Shown here: piece by piece, positions 4,545 through 28,828 of the stretch
Position numbering within the stretch: the stretch's first letter is position 1
Layout: every line of letters begins with the position of its first letter
Notes under the pieces: model-generated
The model's database searches: none
Seen by the model: only the letters and a program-made list of their open reading frames with translations
Told to the model about the DNA's origin: nothing
Source: Acidobacteriota bacterium
GTDB taxonomy: Bacteria > Acidobacteriota > Thermoanaerobaculia > UBA5066
Length of the DNA: 33,489 nucleotides
Reading direction: 5' to 3'
Assembly: GCA_030278895.1 (NCBI GenBank)
Contig: JARXKK010000024.1
Coordinates: forward strand, 1-33,489
Made by a program: the position numbers and the translations under genes

Positions 4545-5561
4545 ATGAAGAGACTCGCCTCCACCGCTCTCGCCCTGGCCTTCGCCACGATCGCGCTCCC
4601 GGCCGCCGCCCGCGGCGGCAGCGACGACGCGCTCGCGCTCGTCCCGACGGACGCGGCCTCCGTCGGCGTGATCCACGTCGCGGACCTGCGGTCCAGCCCG
4701 CTCGCCGCGCGGCTCTTCTCGGACACCGACCGCATCATCGTGGACGGCGACGCGCAGCATTTTCTGGAAGCCGCGCGACTCAACCCGAAGGAGGACGTGG
4801 ATCTCGTCGTCGCGGCCGGTTCGCCGAAAGGGGCCGGTGGGAGTGACGGATGGGGACTCGTCCTCTTCGAGGGGCGCTTCGATCCGGCGCGGCTCTCTCA
4901 GGCGCTCGTCGACAGAGGTGCGACGCGCAAGTCCACGCCCGCGGGCGAGTACCTCCTTCTGAAGAACGAGCACCCCGACGGTTCATCCCATGGCAACGGC
5001 CCCGCGGCGATCGCCTTCGCGAGCACGCACCTCGTGATCGCGGGCTCCGAGTCCGCGGTCGTCACGGCTCTTGCGCAGCGGAGCGGGGGCGGCACGGGGT
5101 TCTCTTCGGGTGCCGGCCTCGGCCGCCACCTCTCACGCATCGACTCCAGCGCGTCCGCCTGGGCTCTCGTGGACGTCGCGCGCATTCCGGCGAAGGACGC
5201 CGCGATGCGGCGGGCGCAGGCTCAGGGGTCGGGGAACGACGCCGCGACGGCGCTCGTCTCGTCCATGAAGTCCGTTCAGTTTCTCGCGCTCCAGGCGACC
5301 GCGAAGGGCGACGCTCTGAAGCTCAACGCGACCGGCCTCGTCAGCGACGGCGAGACGGCCGGCCTCATGGAGGACGCGCTTCGCGGCGTTCTCGCGGCCT
5401 GGCGCCTCGCGGCCCAGGAGAAGTCCCCGGAGACCGTTTCGATGCTCCGCAAGTTCACGGTCTCGCGCGACAAGACGACCGTTTCGATCAGCGGCACGCT
5501 CTCCGGCGCGGCCGTGCGCGCTCTCGCCGAGAAGAAGCACGCGGACAAGCTCGCCGACTGA
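4545..5561 (+). CDS. Exported protein of unknown function, co-operonic with the ABC transporter
   Basis: The tracked ORF opens at 4116, but the gene should start at the ATG at 4545: this gives a signal peptide (MKRLASTALALAFATIALPAAARG) and sits two bases after the permease stop. The mature part of about 315 residues begins DALALVPTDAASVGVIHVADL and alternates beta strands and helices, with no cysteine pairs or recognisable catalytic motif. It loosely recalls periplasmic proteins of the DUF3352 style, but I do not assign it. The tight spacing suggests that it works with the transporter or is exposed where the transporter acts. Function unknown. Confidence 0.82.
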   Translation: MKRLASTALALAFATIALPAAARGGSDDALALVPTDAASVGVIHVADLRSSPLAARLFSDTDRIIVDGDAQHFLEAARLNPKEDVDLVVAAGSPKGAGGSDGWGLVLFEGRFDPARLSQALVDRGATRKSTPAGEYLLLKNEHPDGSSHGNGPAAIAFASTHLVIAGSESAVVTALAQRSGGGTGFSSGAGLGRHLSRIDSSASAWALVDVARIPAKDAAMRRAQAQGSGNDAATALVSSMKSVQFLALQATAKGDALKLNATGLVSDGETAGLMEDALRGVLAAWRLAAQEKSPETVSMLRKFTVSRDKTTVSISGTLSGAAVRALAEKKHADKLAD

Positions 5562-21260: not shown

Positions 21261-23486
21261 ATGAGAACAGGGAAGAAAGCTGCGACAAAGTCCGATAAGA
21301 AGGGGCTCGAGCGTGCCCTGGGTGCTCCAAAGGCGGTTCGGTCTTCGCCTAAAGATCGCGACCTCGCACGCAACACGAAGGATGCGGAGGGCCAGTTCCT
21401 CACGACGAATCAAGGCCTCCGCATCAATGACGACCAGAATTCTCTCAAAGCGGGAGAGCGGGGGCCTTCCCTCCTGGAAGACTTCCACCTTCGCGAAAAG
21501 ATTACGCATTTCGACCACGAGCGAATTCCGGAACGCATCGTCCACGCTCGCGGCAGCGCGGCGCATGGAGTCTTCCAGGTCTACGAATCCATGGCCCGCT
21601 ACACCCGCGCCGCTTTCCTCAACGACCCGGCCGCGCGCACTCCCGTCTTCGTGCGATTCTCGACCGTCGCGGGGTCGCGCGGATCGTCGGACCTCGCCCG
21701 CGACGTGCGGGGCTTCGCTGTAAAGTTCTACACTTCCGAGGGCAACTTCGATCTGGTCGGGAACAACATGCCGGTCTTCTTCATCCAGGATGCCTTGAAG
21801 TTTCCGGATCTCGTTCACGCCGTCAAGCCGGAGCCGGACCGCGAGATTCCCCAGGCCGCTTCGGCCCATGACACGTTCTGGGACTTTATCTCCCTGATGC
21901 CGGAATCCGCCCACATGATCATGTGGGTCATGTCGGACCGCGCGATCCCTCGTAGCTTCCGCATGATGGAAGGGTTCGGGGTTCATACGTTCCGGCTCGT
22001 GAACGAAGCCGGAGAAAGCTCTTTCGTAAAATTCCATTGGAAACCGCTTCTCGGCGTTCACTCCATTCTGTGGGATGAAGCACAGAAGATCTCGGGGCTT
22101 GACCCGGACTACCACCGCCGAGACCTCTGGGAGGCGATCGACAGTGGCGCGTTCCCGGAGTGGGAACTCGGCGTGCAGATCGTCCCGGAGAAAGACGAGC
22201 ACAAGTTCGCGTTCGACCTTCTCGACCCGACGAAGCTCATTCCGGAAGAGGTCGTGCCCGTCAAGCGGGTCGGCAAGCTGACTCTGAACCGCAATCCCGA
22301 CAATTTTTTCGCCGAGACGGAACAGGTGGCGTTCCATCCCGGCCACCTCGTATCGGGAATCGACTTTTCGAACGACCCGCTGCTTCAGGGAAGGCTTTTT
22401 TCCTACACCGATACGCAGCTGTCGCGCCTCGGCGGCCCGAATTTTCACGAGATCCCCATCAACCGGTCCGTGGCCCCGGTCCATAACAACCAGAGGGACG
22501 GGCACATGCGGCAGGAAATCAACCGGGGAACGGCGAGCTACCAGCCGAACTCGGTCGGCGGAGGTTGTCCGTTTCAGGCCGGCCGCGCGGACGGCGGCTT
22601 CGTGAGCCACGCGGAGAAAATCGACGCTCACAAGGTCCGCGGCCGGAGCAAGAGTTTCTTCGACCATTTCAGCCAGGCCGCTCTCTTCTTCAAGAGCCAG
22701 TCCGACGTCGAAAAGGAGCACCTCATTCAGGCGCTGCGCTTCGAGCTCTCCAAAGTCGAACGTCCGGAGATCCGAGAGCGCATGGTGAGGGTGCTGGCTC
22801 AGGTGGATGGCGGCCTCGCGGGCCGCGTGGCCGAGGGGCTGGGAATTGCCGTGCCGAAGGCGCAGAACGGCCCGTTGAATCTCAGCGTGCCAGCCGACGG
22901 CGACGCGGCAGCCTTCCAGCCGGAGCCGGTCAGGAAGAAGATCCTTCTTTCGCCCGCCCTGAGCATGGCGAACAAGCCCCTCAAGGGCATTCAGACAAGG
23001 AAGGTCGCGGTGCTCGCCGCGGACGGGGTGAGCGGGAGCTCGCTCGCCGCAATGACCGAGGCCTTGAAGGCCGCGGGTGCGACCCCTGCTGTCGTGAGTA
23101 CCCGCGTCGGGTTCCTCAAGACCGATACCGGAAAAGACATCAAGATCGACGCGAGCCTCCTGAACACGGGCTCCGTCCTGTTCGACGCGGTGTGCGTTCC
23201 CGGCGGCAAAGCGAGCGTCGCAGCCCTCCTCGCCGAGCCACGCGCGGTGCGCTTTGTGAAGGAAGCCTACGGACATGCGAAAGCGATCGCCGCCACGGGC
23301 GAGGGCATGCAGCTTCTCTCCGCCGCGGGCGCGCTCGCGGCCTCGAAGGCGCAGGCTGCCGCACCCGCGGCCGGCATCGTCGTGGGAGAGATCCCGAAGA
23401 CGAAAAGCGTTGCCGAAGCCTTCATAGCGGCGATCGCCGCTCACCGTCACTGGGAGCGCGAAGAGAAACCGCCAACTCCGAGCTGA
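21261..23486 (+). CDS. katE: Large-subunit monofunctional catalase (HPII/KatE type)
   Basis: Decomposes hydrogen peroxide to water and oxygen. The 741-residue protein has the clade-2 layout: an N-terminal extension, a haem-catalase core and a C-terminal flavodoxin/DJ-1-like domain (about 575-735, starting RKVAVLAADGVSG and including VCVPGGKASV). Essential residues are visible: distal His95 in RIVHARG, Asn168 in DLVGNNMPVFF and proximal haem-ligand Tyr382 in RLFSYTDTQLSRLG. The ATG at 21261 has an AGGAAG site; the tracked start at 21168 lacks support. It sits next to two small stress-type genes and converges on the glycine-zipper gene through a terminator. Alternative symbols such as katG are excluded by the fold. 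Confidence 0.95.
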   Translation: MRTGKKAATKSDKKGLERALGAPKAVRSSPKDRDLARNTKDAEGQFLTTNQGLRINDDQNSLKAGERGPSLLEDFHLREKITHFDHERIPERIVHARGSAAHGVFQVYESMARYTRAAFLNDPAARTPVFVRFSTVAGSRGSSDLARDVRGFAVKFYTSEGNFDLVGNNMPVFFIQDALKFPDLVHAVKPEPDREIPQAASAHDTFWDFISLMPESAHMIMWVMSDRAIPRSFRMMEGFGVHTFRLVNEAGESSFVKFHWKPLLGVHSILWDEAQKISGLDPDYHRRDLWEAIDSGAFPEWELGVQIVPEKDEHKFAFDLLDPTKLIPEEVVPVKRVGKLTLNRNPDNFFAETEQVAFHPGHLVSGIDFSNDPLLQGRLFSYTDTQLSRLGGPNFHEIPINRSVAPVHNNQRDGHMRQEINRGTASYQPNSVGGGCPFQAGRADGGFVSHAEKIDAHKVRGRSKSFFDHFSQAALFFKSQSDVEKEHLIQALRFELSKVERPEIRERMVRVLAQVDGGLAGRVAEGLGIAVPKAQNGPLNLSVPADGDAAAFQPEPVRKKILLSPALSMANKPLKGIQTRKVAVLAADGVSGSSLAAMTEALKAAGATPAVVSTRVGFLKTDTGKDIKIDASLLNTGSVLFDAVCVPGGKASVAALLAEPRAVRFVKEAYGHAKAIAATGEGMQLLSAAGALAASKAQAAAPAAGIVVGEIPKTKSVAEAFIAAIAAHRHWEREEKPPTPS

Positions 23487-24660: not shown

Positions 24661-26160
24661 TCAGTCCTCCCCTTGGGCCTTCGTCCATCCCGGCTTGCCG
24701 CCGATCTCCTCGAGCTTCTCGACGTGCATCCAGCGATACCGACGGGTGATCCGCGAGAGCAGGTCGAGGATCGCGCCGTCCAGCACCTCCGCGCCCGGCT
24801 GGCGCGGGAAGAAGCGGCAGCGGAAGTGGTCGACGCAGTCCGTCATTGCCGACCCCATGGGATAGACCTTCGTCCCGCGGTTGGAGACCATCTTCAGGGC
24901 AAACTGCGTCTCGAGCGCAAGGTCCTCGAGCGAGGCTCCGAGCGCGTTCGGCGCGAGGTCCGTCTCGACGAAGACGTCCACGCCGGCCGTCTTACGTGGC
25001 ACGGCCGGCACTATTGCCCCGTGCGCTGCCGACACCGGCATTCGGAGAGGCCGGTAGTCGCGCGCGTGCCAGTGCTCCGAGATCCATCCGAAATTCGCGA
25101 TGACGGCGTCGGCGAACTTCTGCGTGCCGACGGCGTCGGACTTCGAGACGTCGCGCGTATGGATGCCCTTCTCGAGGGTCACGAACAGGGCGTTCTCCAC
25201 ACGCGCCGCGGCCTCGATCTCGCCGAGGTGGCGCAGCATGAGAACCGCGGACAGGAGGACGGCCGTGGGGTTCGCCACGTCCTTGCCCGCGTACTTCGGC
25301 GCCGAGCCGTGCACGGCCTCGAAGATCGCGACCTCCGACCCGAGGTTCGCCGAGGGCGCGAAACCGAGCCCGCCGACGAGGCCGGACGTGAGATCCGACA
25401 GGATGTCCCCGTTCATGTTGCTCATGACGAGGATCTCGAAGGCCTCCGGGAAGCGCACGAGCTGGTGGGCCGCGTTGTCCACGATGATGTGCTCCGCGCG
25501 GATCTGCGGGTACTCCGGCGCGATCTCCTCGAACGTGCGCTTCAGGAGCCCCTCCGTGAGCTTCATGATGTTCGCCTTCGTCGCGCAGTGGATCGACGTC
25601 CGCCCTTCGGCCACCGCGAGCTCGAACGCGATCCGGACGATCTTCTCGCAGCCTTTCCGGGACATGAGCTTCAGGCACTGCGCGACGCCGGGCGTCTGCA
25701 TGTGCTCGATGCCGGCATACAGGTCCTCGACGTTCTCGCGCACGATGATGAGGTCGATCCCGCGGCCCGCGTACGGCGTCGGGACGCCGGGCATCTCGCG
25801 CACGGGCCGGACGTTCGCGTACGTCTCGAAGAGCTTGCGCAGCGTGACGTTCGCGCTCTTCTCACCGAAGCCGACGGGCGTCTCCAGCGGCCCCTTCAGG
25901 ACGAGACGGGTCTTCCGGATCGACTCGATCGTCTCCTCCGGCACGCCCGACGACAGCCCCTGCCGGAAGACCGATGCGCCCGCCTCCCGGACCTCCCAGT
26001 CGAGGCGCACGCCCGTCGCCTCGAGGACGCGGCGCGCGGCAGCCGTCACCTCGGGACCGATCCCGTCCCCCGGGATCAACGTCACCGTCCGGACCGCGCG
26101 CTCCCCCGCGACAGCCCCGCCCTTCGCTTCCGCCGGCTCCCGTTCGATCACGACGCTCAT
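24661..26160 (-). CDS. icd: Isocitrate dehydrogenase, Thermus-type with C-terminal extension
   Basis: Oxidative decarboxylation of isocitrate to 2-oxoglutarate in the TCA cycle. 499 residues. The isopropylmalate/isocitrate dehydrogenase core has the substrate motif SANVTLRK (about 102-109), ENVEDLYAGIE, the metal-binding MNGDILSDL, and the cofactor segment EAVHGSAPKYAGKDVANPTA. About 140 extra residues at the C-terminus end in GWTKAQGED, as in the Thermus enzyme group. NAD versus NADP preference is not certain. The ATG at 26160 has a GAGGAGGAG site; the tracked 26190 start does not. It is divergent from a winged-helix regulator with operator-like palindromes between. A 103-base gap separates its stop from the ElaB-like gene. 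Confidence 0.93.
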   Translation of the reverse strand: MSVVIEREPAEAKGGAVAGERAVRTVTLIPGDGIGPEVTAAARRVLEATGVRLDWEVREAGASVFRQGLSSGVPEETIESIRKTRLVLKGPLETPVGFGEKSANVTLRKLFETYANVRPVREMPGVPTPYAGRGIDLIIVRENVEDLYAGIEHMQTPGVAQCLKLMSRKGCEKIVRIAFELAVAEGRTSIHCATKANIMKLTEGLLKRTFEEIAPEYPQIRAEHIIVDNAAHQLVRFPEAFEILVMSNMNGDILSDLTSGLVGGLGFAPSANLGSEVAIFEAVHGSAPKYAGKDVANPTAVLLSAVLMLRHLGEIEAAARVENALFVTLEKGIHTRDVSKSDAVGTQKFADAVIANFGWISEHWHARDYRPLRMPVSAAHGAIVPAVPRKTAGVDVFVETDLAPNALGASLEDLALETQFALKMVSNRGTKVYPMGSAMTDCVDHFRCRFFPRQPGAEVLDGAILDLLSRITRRYRWMHVEKLEEIGGKPGWTKAQGED

Positions 26161-26191
26161 GGCTCCTCCTCGTTTGACCCAGTATCTCAAG

Positions 26192-26211
26192 ACCGGAATC
26201 GCATTTCCGGT
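26192..26211. promoter_or_regulatory. Inverted repeat, likely operator
   Basis: ACCGGAA - 6 bases - TTCCGGT is a perfect 7-bp inverted repeat in the icd 5' leader, just downstream of the candidate icd promoter. It fits a dimeric regulator site, possibly for the divergent winged-helix protein. Confidence 0.5.
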
Positions 26212-26213
26212 AA

Positions 26214-26243
26214 TTTATAACATGACATAAAATCGCGTTGCAA
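26214..26243 (-). promoter_or_regulatory. Candidate icd promoter with overlapping palindrome
   Basis: On the minus strand, TTGCAA (-35, at 26243-26238) and TATAAA (-10, at 26219-26214) are separated by 18 bases. The -10 and spacer overlap an imperfect 16-base palindrome TTATAACATGACATAA (26215-26230; 12 of 16 bases symmetric). The sequence is strikingly AT-rich for this window. Confidence 0.45.
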
Positions 26244-26251
26244 GAGGGCCC

Positions 26252-26581
26252 ATGAAAAAATCCCCCGGTCGCCCGGTCGCCCAGGAGCCGGCGGCCTGGA
26301 CGTTCCTGACGAACCACGCCCACGTCCTGCTCTGCGTCGCCGGGGAGCCGGACGTCAGGATGCGGGACCTCGCGGTCCGCGTGGGGATCACGGAGCGGGC
26401 CGTGCAGCGCATCCTCGGCGAATTGGAGGCCGCGGGCTACGTGCGCCGCGAACGCACGGGACGCCGGAACCGCTACGACGTGCGGGCCGACCTGCCGCTC
26501 CGCCACCCGGTCGAGCGCCACAACAAGGTGGCCGCGCTTCTCGATCTGCGGAAAAGCGGGCCGGACTCCCGCCGGCCCTAG
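26252..26581 (+). CDS. Winged-helix (MarR-like) transcriptional regulator
   Basis: 109 residues, mostly one winged helix-turn-helix. HVLLCVAGEPDVRMRDLAVRVGITERAVQRILGELEAAGYVRRERTGRRNRYDVR contains the recognition helix (RAVQRILGELEAAG) and wing. No ligand domain is evident beyond short flanks, so it may act as a simple dimeric DNA-binding protein. A GAGGG site lies just before the ATG. Its position divergent from icd, with two palindromes between, suggests that it regulates icd, itself or both. It converges on egtD with a single base between stop codons. Confidence 0.82.
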   Translation: MKKSPGRPVAQEPAAWTFLTNHAHVLLCVAGEPDVRMRDLAVRVGITERAVQRILGELEAAGYVRRERTGRRNRYDVRADLPLRHPVERHNKVAALLDLRKSGPDSRRP

Positions 26582-26582
26582 G

Positions 26583-27524
26583 CTAGATGTCGATTGCGCG
26601 GCAGAGGGTAAGGGCGAACCGGGCGTCGCCGTCGATCCACTGACGCTCGCGGCGAAAACCGGCCGCGAGGGCGAGGCTCTCCACGTCCGGAAGTTCGTAC
26701 TTGTACGAGCTTTCCGTGAAGATCGTCTCGCCCGCCGCGAAATCGGCCACGACGCCCGCACGCGGGATCGCGACCCTCTGCCTCACGAGGCTCACGAGGT
26801 GCATCTCCACGCGGCGCAGGTCCGCGTTCCACACGGCGCGGTGTTCCCAGGCCGCGAGATCGAAGTCGGCGCCAAGCTCGCGATTCAGGCGGAGGAGGAC
26901 GTTGCGGTTGAAGACCGCCGTCAGGCCGAGCGGATCGTCGTAGGCCTCGAGGAGTGTCCGCTCCGGCTTCACGAGATCGACCCCGAGGAGGAGCGCGTCG
27001 CCCGGACGGAGCCGCCGGCGGACGCTGGCGAGGAAACGCTCCGCATCGTGCGGATCGAAGTTCCCGATGTTCGACCCGAGGAAAAGGACGAGGCATTCTC
27101 CGCGTCCGCGCGGCGGGTGTGTTGCTTCGAGGAGACCCTTCTCGTAAGTCGCGTGGTGCCCCCGGGCTTTCGCGCCGGGGATCTTCGCGAGGCGCTGGAG
27201 CGAGTCCGCGAGCGCCGCGGCCGAGAGGTCGACGACATGAACGACCGTGGTCTTCCGGCGCGCGCGCAGGGCCTCGATGACGAGGGCGATCTTCTCGCCG
27301 CTGCCCGAGCCCAGCTCGACGACGCGGACCGGCCCCGTCAGAGCGCCCGCCACCGCCGGAGCCGCCCGCCGAAGAAGGCGCTTCTCGGCCTTGGTGATCC
27401 GGTACCACGGGAGCTGTCCGATCGCTTCGAAGAGGCGTGAGCCGAGCGCGTCGTAGAAGTACTTCGGCGGTAGCGAGCGCGGCCTCCCCGCGAACCCGGC
27501 CTTCACGTCCCGGGCGAGGCTCAT
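26583..27524 (-). CDS. egtD: L-histidine N-alpha-methyltransferase EgtD
   Basis: Trimethylates histidine with SAM to give hercynine, the first step of ergothioneine synthesis. 313 residues: KYFYDALGSRLFEAIGQLPWYRITKAE at the N-terminus (a family signature), the SAM site VVELGSGSGEKI (about 68-79), and LFLGSNIGNF containing the Asn expected to hold the histidine substrate. The end, ESSYKYELPDVESLALAAGF, has the conserved E-x-S-x-K-Y segment. The start overlaps the egtB stop by 4 bases (ATGA), so the two are co-translated. The tracked ORF extends upstream to 28766 in the shadow frame of egtB. Confidence 0.95.
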   Translation of the reverse strand: MSLARDVKAGFAGRPRSLPPKYFYDALGSRLFEAIGQLPWYRITKAEKRLLRRAAPAVAGALTGPVRVVELGSGSGEKIALVIEALRARRKTTVVHVVDLSAAALADSLQRLAKIPGAKARGHHATYEKGLLEATHPPRGRGECLVLFLGSNIGNFDPHDAERFLASVRRRLRPGDALLLGVDLVKPERTLLEAYDDPLGLTAVFNRNVLLRLNRELGADFDLAAWEHRAVWNADLRRVEMHLVSLVRQRVAIPRAGVVADFAAGETIFTESSYKYELPDVESLALAAGFRRERQWIDGDARFALTLCRAIDI

Positions 27525-28828
27525 GGCCGCACGCACCGGAATTTCGCGTAGACGTATGGGTAGCGCGCCTGGAACCAGTTCCGGAGCGTTCGGCGGACGA
27601 GCGCGACGGGCGTCGCCGGAGACGCGCCCTTGAGAACAAAATGCCGCCCGTCGAAGAAGTCGGCCGAGTAGCGGGGGTACGAGGCCATGGGAGCGAAGCC
27701 GCCGAATCCCGCGAACGGCGTGGACGTCCATTCCCACCCGTTCCCGACGAGCTCGTGCACGCCCCAGGCGCTCGCGCCTTCGGGCCGGGAGCCGGCGGGC
27801 ACGGGGTCGTTGCGCTCGCCGCCGAAGTTCCCGTGGGCCGCCGTGGGCGCCGCGTCGCCCCACGGGAACGCGCGCTCCCTCCCCTCCGGCGTTCCGAACG
27901 CGGCGCGGTGGAACTCGGCTTCCGTCGGGAGGCGCCTCTTGCACCACCGCGCGTAGGCCGACGCCTCGGCATGGCTCACCCAGACGGGCCACGCCGGGGG
28001 CAGCGGAACGAGGCCGAACTGCCCGGCCCAGAGCCAGGCGCGGCCTTCTCTCCGCCAGAAGGATGGACACGTGACGCCGCTCTCGGAGAGCCACTCCGCG
28101 TCGCCGGCCTGCCAGAAGGAGGGATCGGCATAGCCGCCCGCCTCGACGAAATCGAGAAACTGCTCGTTCGTGACGGGCGCCGCGTCGATCGTGAACGCCG
28201 GAACGGACCGGCAGCTCTTCGGGAACTCGTTGTCCCAGCCGAACGGAATCTCGTCGCGGCCCGCGCCGAGCGTCGCGACGCCCGCGGGGACGCGGACGAC
28301 CGGCTCCCGGCGGGTGGGACCCGACGTCTCGAGAGGCGGCGACGCCGCAGGGGCGCGCTTTTCCGAATAGGGGAGGCGGTGGAGCATGTAGCGCAAGGTC
28401 TCCTGGTGCATCGGCTCGTGCTCGAGCACGGTGAAGACGGCCTCCCGAAACTCCTCGCCCGCGAGCGTCTCCGAGGCGAGTGCCTCCTCGACGGCGGTGT
28501 CGGCGCGCCGGACATACGCGGACACGTCCCTGCGTGAAGGCCAGCGCCCTTCCGGCTGCGCGCCACCCTCGGCGGGCGGGTCGATGCCGCGCTCGAACAG
28601 GAGCTCGAGCGACGCGTCGATTCCCGGCCGGCCGAGCGCTCCCTTGAGGAGCGTGTTCACGCCGAACGCCGCAAGATGGCCTTCGTAGAAGACGAACGGA
28701 TGGCGCAGGGCGATCGGGCGCGCTTCGTACGCGCCTGGCGCCAGCGTCTCGTCGAAGAAGCGCCATGTTGACGCCCGCGTCGCGCTCCAGCGCCCGAGGA
28801 CTTCTTCCATCCCTGCATTCTCCGACAT
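27521..28828 (-). CDS. egtB: EgtB-type non-haem iron sulfoxide synthase
   Basis: Joins hercynine to a thiol donor using O2, making the C-S bond of ergothioneine. 435 residues in two domains: an N-terminal DinB-like bundle with iron ligands His51 (FVFYEGHLAAF), His137 and His141 (LEHEPMHQETL), at spacings like those of mycobacterial EgtB; and a C-terminal FGE/sulfatase-modifying-like fold (RVPAGVATLGAG, FPWGDAAPTAAHGNFGG, VHELVGNGWEWTSTPF). The start chosen is ATG 28828; the frame runs on in the track only because no stop intervenes. It is upstream of, and overlaps, egtD. No egtA, egtC or egtE is present, so the sulfur donor may be free cysteine or gamma-glutamylcysteine. The ribosome site is weak. 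Confidence 0.93.
   Translation of the reverse strand: MSENAGMEEVLGRWSATRASTWRFFDETLAPGAYEARPIALRHPFVFYEGHLAAFGVNTLLKGALGRPGIDASLELLFERGIDPPAEGGAQPEGRWPSRRDVSAYVRRADTAVEEALASETLAGEEFREAVFTVLEHEPMHQETLRYMLHRLPYSEKRAPAASPPLETSGPTRREPVVRVPAGVATLGAGRDEIPFGWDNEFPKSCRSVPAFTIDAAPVTNEQFLDFVEAGGYADPSFWQAGDAEWLSESGVTCPSFWRREGRAWLWAGQFGLVPLPPAWPVWVSHAEASAYARWCKRRLPTEAEFHRAAFGTPEGRERAFPWGDAAPTAAHGNFGGERNDPVPAGSRPEGASAWGVHELVGNGWEWTSTPFAGFGGFAPMASYPRYSADFFDGRHFVLKGASPATPVALVRRTLRNWFQARYPYVYAKFRCVRP

Follow-up and report, generated by a model that had tools for sequence, protein, structure and literature searches.

A tiny winged-helix regulator encoded divergently from icd, the isocitrate dehydrogenase gene, is a real and recurrent unit, and the gap between the two genes very probably holds a binding site of the regulator, as judged from sequence comparison. 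The gene pair, the operator and the position of the operator are conserved, the operator is rare in the genomes, and the surroundings are those of an inorganic-carbon neighbourhood. The regulator is likely to be a local one-component repressor, acting at positions 26220-26238 in the -35/-10 spacer of the putative icd promoter and relieved by a signal linked to CO2/HCO3-.

The window, a stretch of 33,489 nucleotides from an Acidobacteriota genome, contains icd on the reverse strand (24661..26160, with its ATG at 26160) and the regulator gene on the forward strand (26252..26581, with its ATG at 26252). The coordinates bear out the original prediction of icd and a tiny divergent regulator facing each other across a 91-base gap (26161-26251). 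The icd product (499 amino acids) comprises an Iso_dh and a bacterial ICDH C-terminal domain (Pfam PF00180 and PF18324) and is of the NF006673/PRK09222 type, with a score of 580 bits against NCBIfam NF006673 (cut-off 509). On the 3′ side of the regulator gene lies an ergothioneine pair on the reverse strand (26583-28766), consisting of egtD, which scores above the cut-off of TIGR03438, and an apparent egtB; the identity of egtD is only about 55% with same-genus copies and 58% with a copy from another family of the order. The genome assembly comprises 3.47 Mb in 243 contigs.

The regulator (109 amino acids) contains a MarR DNA-binding domain, with matches to the Pfam models MarR_2 (PF12802, 38.9 bits, cut-off 27) and MarR (PF01047, 25.7 bits, cut-off 24.6); further wHTH models match as well. 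It does not have the full-length MarR architecture of about 140 residues with N- and C-terminal dimerisation helices. Against the ArsR/SmtB metalloregulator model NF033788 it scores 22.1 bits, compared to a cut-off of 55, and weak matches to this model are found in 41 of 60 family members; among the curated NCBIfam families the regulator falls below the cut-off of every one. The AlphaFold2 model (mean pLDDT 82) displays a generic winged helix, consisting of three helices, a wing and a single short C-terminal helix, and its nearest solved folds are those of ArsR, MarR and AspA proteins. A search of the PDB sequences with the regulator as single query gave no match, while the family profile gave distant matches, the closest sequences and folds being SmtB, ArsR, MarR and AspA structures.

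The family motifs of the regulator are WTFLTNHAHVLLC...VGITERAVQRI...GRRNRY...LRHPVExH. In the window's regulator the patterns WTFLTNHxH, VGITERAVQRI, GRRNxY and LRHPxExH occupy residues 16-24, 44-54, 70-75 and 83-90, respectively, and the residues agree with alignment columns that are mostly at least 90% conserved among 144 members. The reading frame is intact, all family-invariant residues are present, and the recognition helix is unchanged with respect to the family. The invariant residues outside this helix, i.e. N21, H22, H24, R84, H85, E88 and H90, are candidates for signal sensing.

Homologues were gathered by similarity to the window's regulator. From the 456 or more candidate stretches of one scan, 80 were retained, and others came from genomes sampled in three phyla; after removal of duplicates the set contains 144 distinct members. 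Within this sample, to which the partner frequencies apply, icd is the commonest divergent partner, lying within 600 bp of the regulator gene in 18 of the 144 members, the window included, and in several phyla. The pairs carry labels such as Acidobacteria, Myxococcales, Deltaproteobacteria, Phycisphaera and a Chthonomonas assembly, and they involve two icd subtypes, which share 61-70% and 41-48% identity with the icd of the window. Mirror-tree comparison of the icd and regulator distances over the 18 pairs gives a weak correlation (r 0.14, p 0.07), which is therefore not counted as support. In 60 related genomes, including three of the same genus, the regulator was not found at high score. No account of this regulator family beside DabA/DUF2309, Sbt, carbonic anhydrase or icd was found in the open-licence literature.

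A conserved, palindromic 20-bp operator, ACACGAAAT-nn-ATTTCGTGT, was learned by expectation-maximisation on 80 regulator upstream regions, from which the window was excluded. Four out of five starting points converged on this motif, and its log-likelihood is 341, compared to 19-33 for shuffles. It occurs in the gap of all 17 other icd pairs with scores of 15.8-27.2 bits, in some cases as a perfect palindrome, e.g. ATACGACATATATGTCGTAT. The spacer between the half-sites is 2 nt in 72 of 75 strong family sites and 1 nt in none of them. When ten genomes with an icd pair were scanned with a strict operator pattern, it was found in four, once each and always at the regulator gap, with 0 control matches; the single occurrence at this place makes the regulator look local. 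In addition, outer half-sites of more than 5 bits are positioned exactly 14 bp outside the inner ones, on the left in 7 and on the right in 5 of the 18 icd pairs. Such half-sites, on one or both sides, are observed in the upstream regions of L052, L056, L072, L093, L139 and L080. The resulting array of four half-sites suggests that more than one dimer may bind cooperatively.

Besides icd, the recurrent neighbours of the regulator are DabA, DabB-like proteins, Sbt_1 bicarbonate transporters with a P-II-like protein, PurK, PurE and carbonic anhydrase. The neighbour categories are BLAST clusters, of which one representative each was checked against Pfam (DabA, Proton_antipo_M for the DabB-like proteins, Sbt_1, P-II, PurK, AIRC for PurE, and Pro_CA). 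An inorganic-carbon-related gene is present within 2.5 kb in at least 78 of the 144 members, many loci having a flank of 1.5 kb only, and in the window the adjacent gene of this kind is the divergent icd. Combined loci also occur, with the order icd-regulator-carbonic anhydrase (L038, L052, L056) or purK-purE-icd-regulator (L014, L035). The core partners all produce, transport, fix or release inorganic carbon; for example, the isocitrate dehydrogenase reaction yields CO2, and that of PurK uses HCO3-. Across many bacterial phyla, relatives of the regulator adjoin, and probably control, genes for importing, hydrating, fixing or releasing CO2. For the proposal of a dedicated icd regulator, the recurrence of the pair and the operator in the 17 other gaps are favourable, but the pairing is not peculiar to icd, given that DabAB, Sbt-type transporters, carbonic anhydrase and PurEK are partners of the same family, too.

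Less expected partners include an ABC-type transport cluster, universal stress proteins (Usp), NhaA, other ion exchangers, a CLC channel and an M48 peptidase; four of these, namely the ABC transporters, Usp, the M48 peptidase and NhaA, are at odds with a purely carbon-related role. The ABC-type cluster is a second recurrent partner: in L012, L015, L060, L076 and L083 a cluster of an ABC ATPase, an HlyD-like protein and an OEP protein is divergent from the regulator, with no obvious link to inorganic carbon. In loci L026, L028, L037, L043 and L065 the regulator is flanked on one side by an Sbt-type bicarbonate transporter, a P-II-like protein and an unassigned protein of about 190 residues, and on the opposite side by a LysR gene, which places two regulators at one carbon locus.

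Where the regulator gene is the last of a dabB-dabA operon, an operator of at least 16 bits is usually located upstream of dabB (L027, L046, L062, L066, L068 and L090); L041 has a 10-bit site only. In L064 a 23.1-bit operator (5349-5368) lies between the end of the dabB-dabA-regulator operon and purK-purE, which suggests that a single regulator may control both units. Sites of at least 16 bits outside the training regions also precede nhaA in L058 and L087. Over 933 kb, 27 sites of this strength occur away from regulator starts, compared to 2 in all for a column-permuted matrix. As the operator moves to dabB or purK when the regulator gene is elsewhere, its position goes with that of the target genes rather than with the start of the regulator gene.

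The probable operator of the window is ACATGACAT-A-AAATCGCGT at 26220-26238, consisting of two half-sites of 10.6 and 8.6 bits that are separated by a single nucleotide. It scores 19.2 bits when the spacer is left free, and corresponds to a 19-bp version of the family operator with a spacer of 1 instead of 2 nt. Among 3000 dinucleotide shuffles, none reaches its score at spacer 1 and one does so at spacers 1-3; among real stretches of sequence with a comparable AT content the fraction is 0.4%, some true sites being counted in it. No spacer-1 site elsewhere in the window scores as high. A 17.0-bit spacer-1 match at 21491, inside a long ORF with a translation resembling catalase, is probably due to chance, and in view of this second match the site at 26220-26238 is by itself not beyond chance. 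The outer half-sites at 14 bp, present in several relatives, are absent around it. Closely following the site is TGCAAG, in the same relative place as in L072, L056 and L052. On the reverse strand, a putative icd -35 element TTGCAA (26238-26243) and a putative -10 element TATAAA (26214-26219) were assigned by eye, and a TTGCAA-like element is found just outside the operator in several relatives. The spacer of 18 bp between the two elements is filled by 26220-26238. A consensus scan missed this promoter, because its -10 element does not end in T.

In the proposed mechanism, the regulator would bind the palindromic operator at 26220-26238, the 19-bp variant being presumed to work. Since the site lies between the -35 and -10 elements, a classic place for steric repression, the bound regulator would block RNA polymerase and repress icd, and its own gene would probably be repressed at the same time (autorepression). 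Repression would be lifted by a signal most likely tied to CO2/HCO3- status, given that the uptake, hydration or fixation of inorganic carbon is the function of the other recurrent targets. This signal could be the ion itself or a proxy such as 2-oxoglutarate or pH; 2-oxoglutarate/NADP+ or pH may be considered as alternative signals to CO2/HCO3-. When CO2 is scarce, derepression of icd would lead to an intracellular release of CO2, whose supply would fall to DabAB, Sbt and carbonic anhydrase elsewhere, and a joint derepression of the core partners would make physiological sense.

The original prediction had drawn attention to two other elements of the gap, both of which exist: a perfect 7-bp inverted repeat, ACCGGAA-TCGCAT-TTCCGGT, at 26192-26211, and an imperfect 16-base palindrome, TTATAACATGACATAA, at 26215-26230, which is palindromic at 12 of its 16 bases. 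Neither of them is conserved where the gene pair is kept, whereas a third element, which overlaps in part, is conserved. When the gap is shuffled with its dinucleotide composition preserved, 31% of the sequences contain a 16-mer as symmetric as 26215-26230 (6 or more of 8 pairs), and as a palindrome this element is at chance level. It had been placed over a plausible icd promoter, and putative promoter elements are indeed readable there. It is half-overlapped by 26220-26238, its right part containing the left half-site of the probable operator. A perfect 7-6-7 repeat occurs in 0.6% of the shuffled gaps, and any perfect 7-bp repeat with a loop of 0-20 nt in 7%. With the spacer fixed, the 26192-26211 repeat is the best match of the gap in the 20-bp register, and it was first taken as the operator in that register, to be demoted once half-sites were scored with free spacing. 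It is rather unlikely that this repeat is nevertheless the true operator, drifted in its arms (ACCGG for ACACG), retaining the 20-bp span and lying over the icd start site, with 26220-26238 as a remnant. Its perfect symmetry would agree with such a role, as would the combination of a perfect 7-6-7 repeat and its score, found in 0 of 5000 shuffles, the presence of one ACCGGAAAT arm in the operator of L054, and its uniqueness: it is the sole exact copy in the 3.47-Mb genome, where seven near copies with 1-2 mismatches all fall within long ORFs. However, its score of 4.8 bits is reached by 8% of the shuffled gaps, the repeat is absent from all loci of other organisms examined, including the gaps of all relatives, and the unchanged recognition helix leaves a shifted specificity unexplained.

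Similarly improbable is that the regulator is an activator in the icd gap, or acts on its own gene alone with icd as a bystander. Divergent gaps always serve two genes, and the assignment of the icd promoter by eye leaves room for such a reading; the position of the window site between these promoter elements, from which a bound protein usually prevents transcription, and the operators upstream of dabB or purK at loci where the regulator gene lies elsewhere argue against it. Decay of a horizontally acquired pair, or misbinning of the contig, with an operator that is no longer functional, would account for the spacer deletion and for the absence of the regulator from the three same-genus genomes and from all of its family searched, and the fragmentation of the assembly into 243 contigs is compatible with misbinning. 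This explanation is quite unlikely, given the intact frame of the regulator with all family-invariant residues kept, and the adjacent egtD has same-genus homologues, though at the modest identity of about 55%. A local repressor of icd at 26220-26238 is preferred over these explanations.

It is conceivable, if doubtful, that this widespread, undescribed family of about 100 residues senses CO2/HCO3- directly, perhaps via the invariant H22, H24, R84, H85, E88 and H90, and places icd, DabAB, Sbt, carbonic anhydrase and PurEK under CO2 control. Outside cyanobacteria, the sensing of CO2/bicarbonate supply by heterotrophic bacteria, and their response to it, are poorly understood. A family with a defined operator that links DabAB, Sbt transporters, carbonic anhydrase, purine carboxylation and isocitrate dehydrogenase would provide a direct handle on this question, and an enzyme of the TCA cycle would be seen to have a dedicated regulator encoded beside it. 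With the operator model, target genes can be predicted from sequence.

The proposed system resembles the local autorepressors of the ArsR/SmtB and MarR types (SmtB, AdcR, ZitR), which are likewise small winged-helix proteins encoded beside or divergently from their target, with a palindromic operator in the promoter, the latter being predicted from sequence in the window. Unlike MarR, the family has about 100 residues and is devoid of the long flanking dimer helices; it has its own invariant motifs, NHxH and LRHPxExH, and its partners are carbon genes, whereas the ArsR/SmtB- and MarR-type targets are metal or drug resistance. The cyanobacterial LysR-type regulator CcmR/NdhR also controls inorganic-carbon uptake genes, and its signals, according to the title of the published account, are 2-oxoglutarate and NADP+, which are also the product and the cofactor of ICDH (PMC3401165). 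It differs in belonging to the LysR family, with a ligand domain, and is unrelated in sequence to the window's regulator. CcmR/NdhR is not known to control icd. In model bacteria, icd is under transcriptional control by ArcA, Cra and CcpC, so that the same enzyme is, by the present prediction, a transcriptional target in both cases. ArcA, Cra and CcpC are global or multi-target regulators encoded away from icd; in contrast, the gene of the window's regulator adjoins icd, and the predicted operator is rare in the genome.
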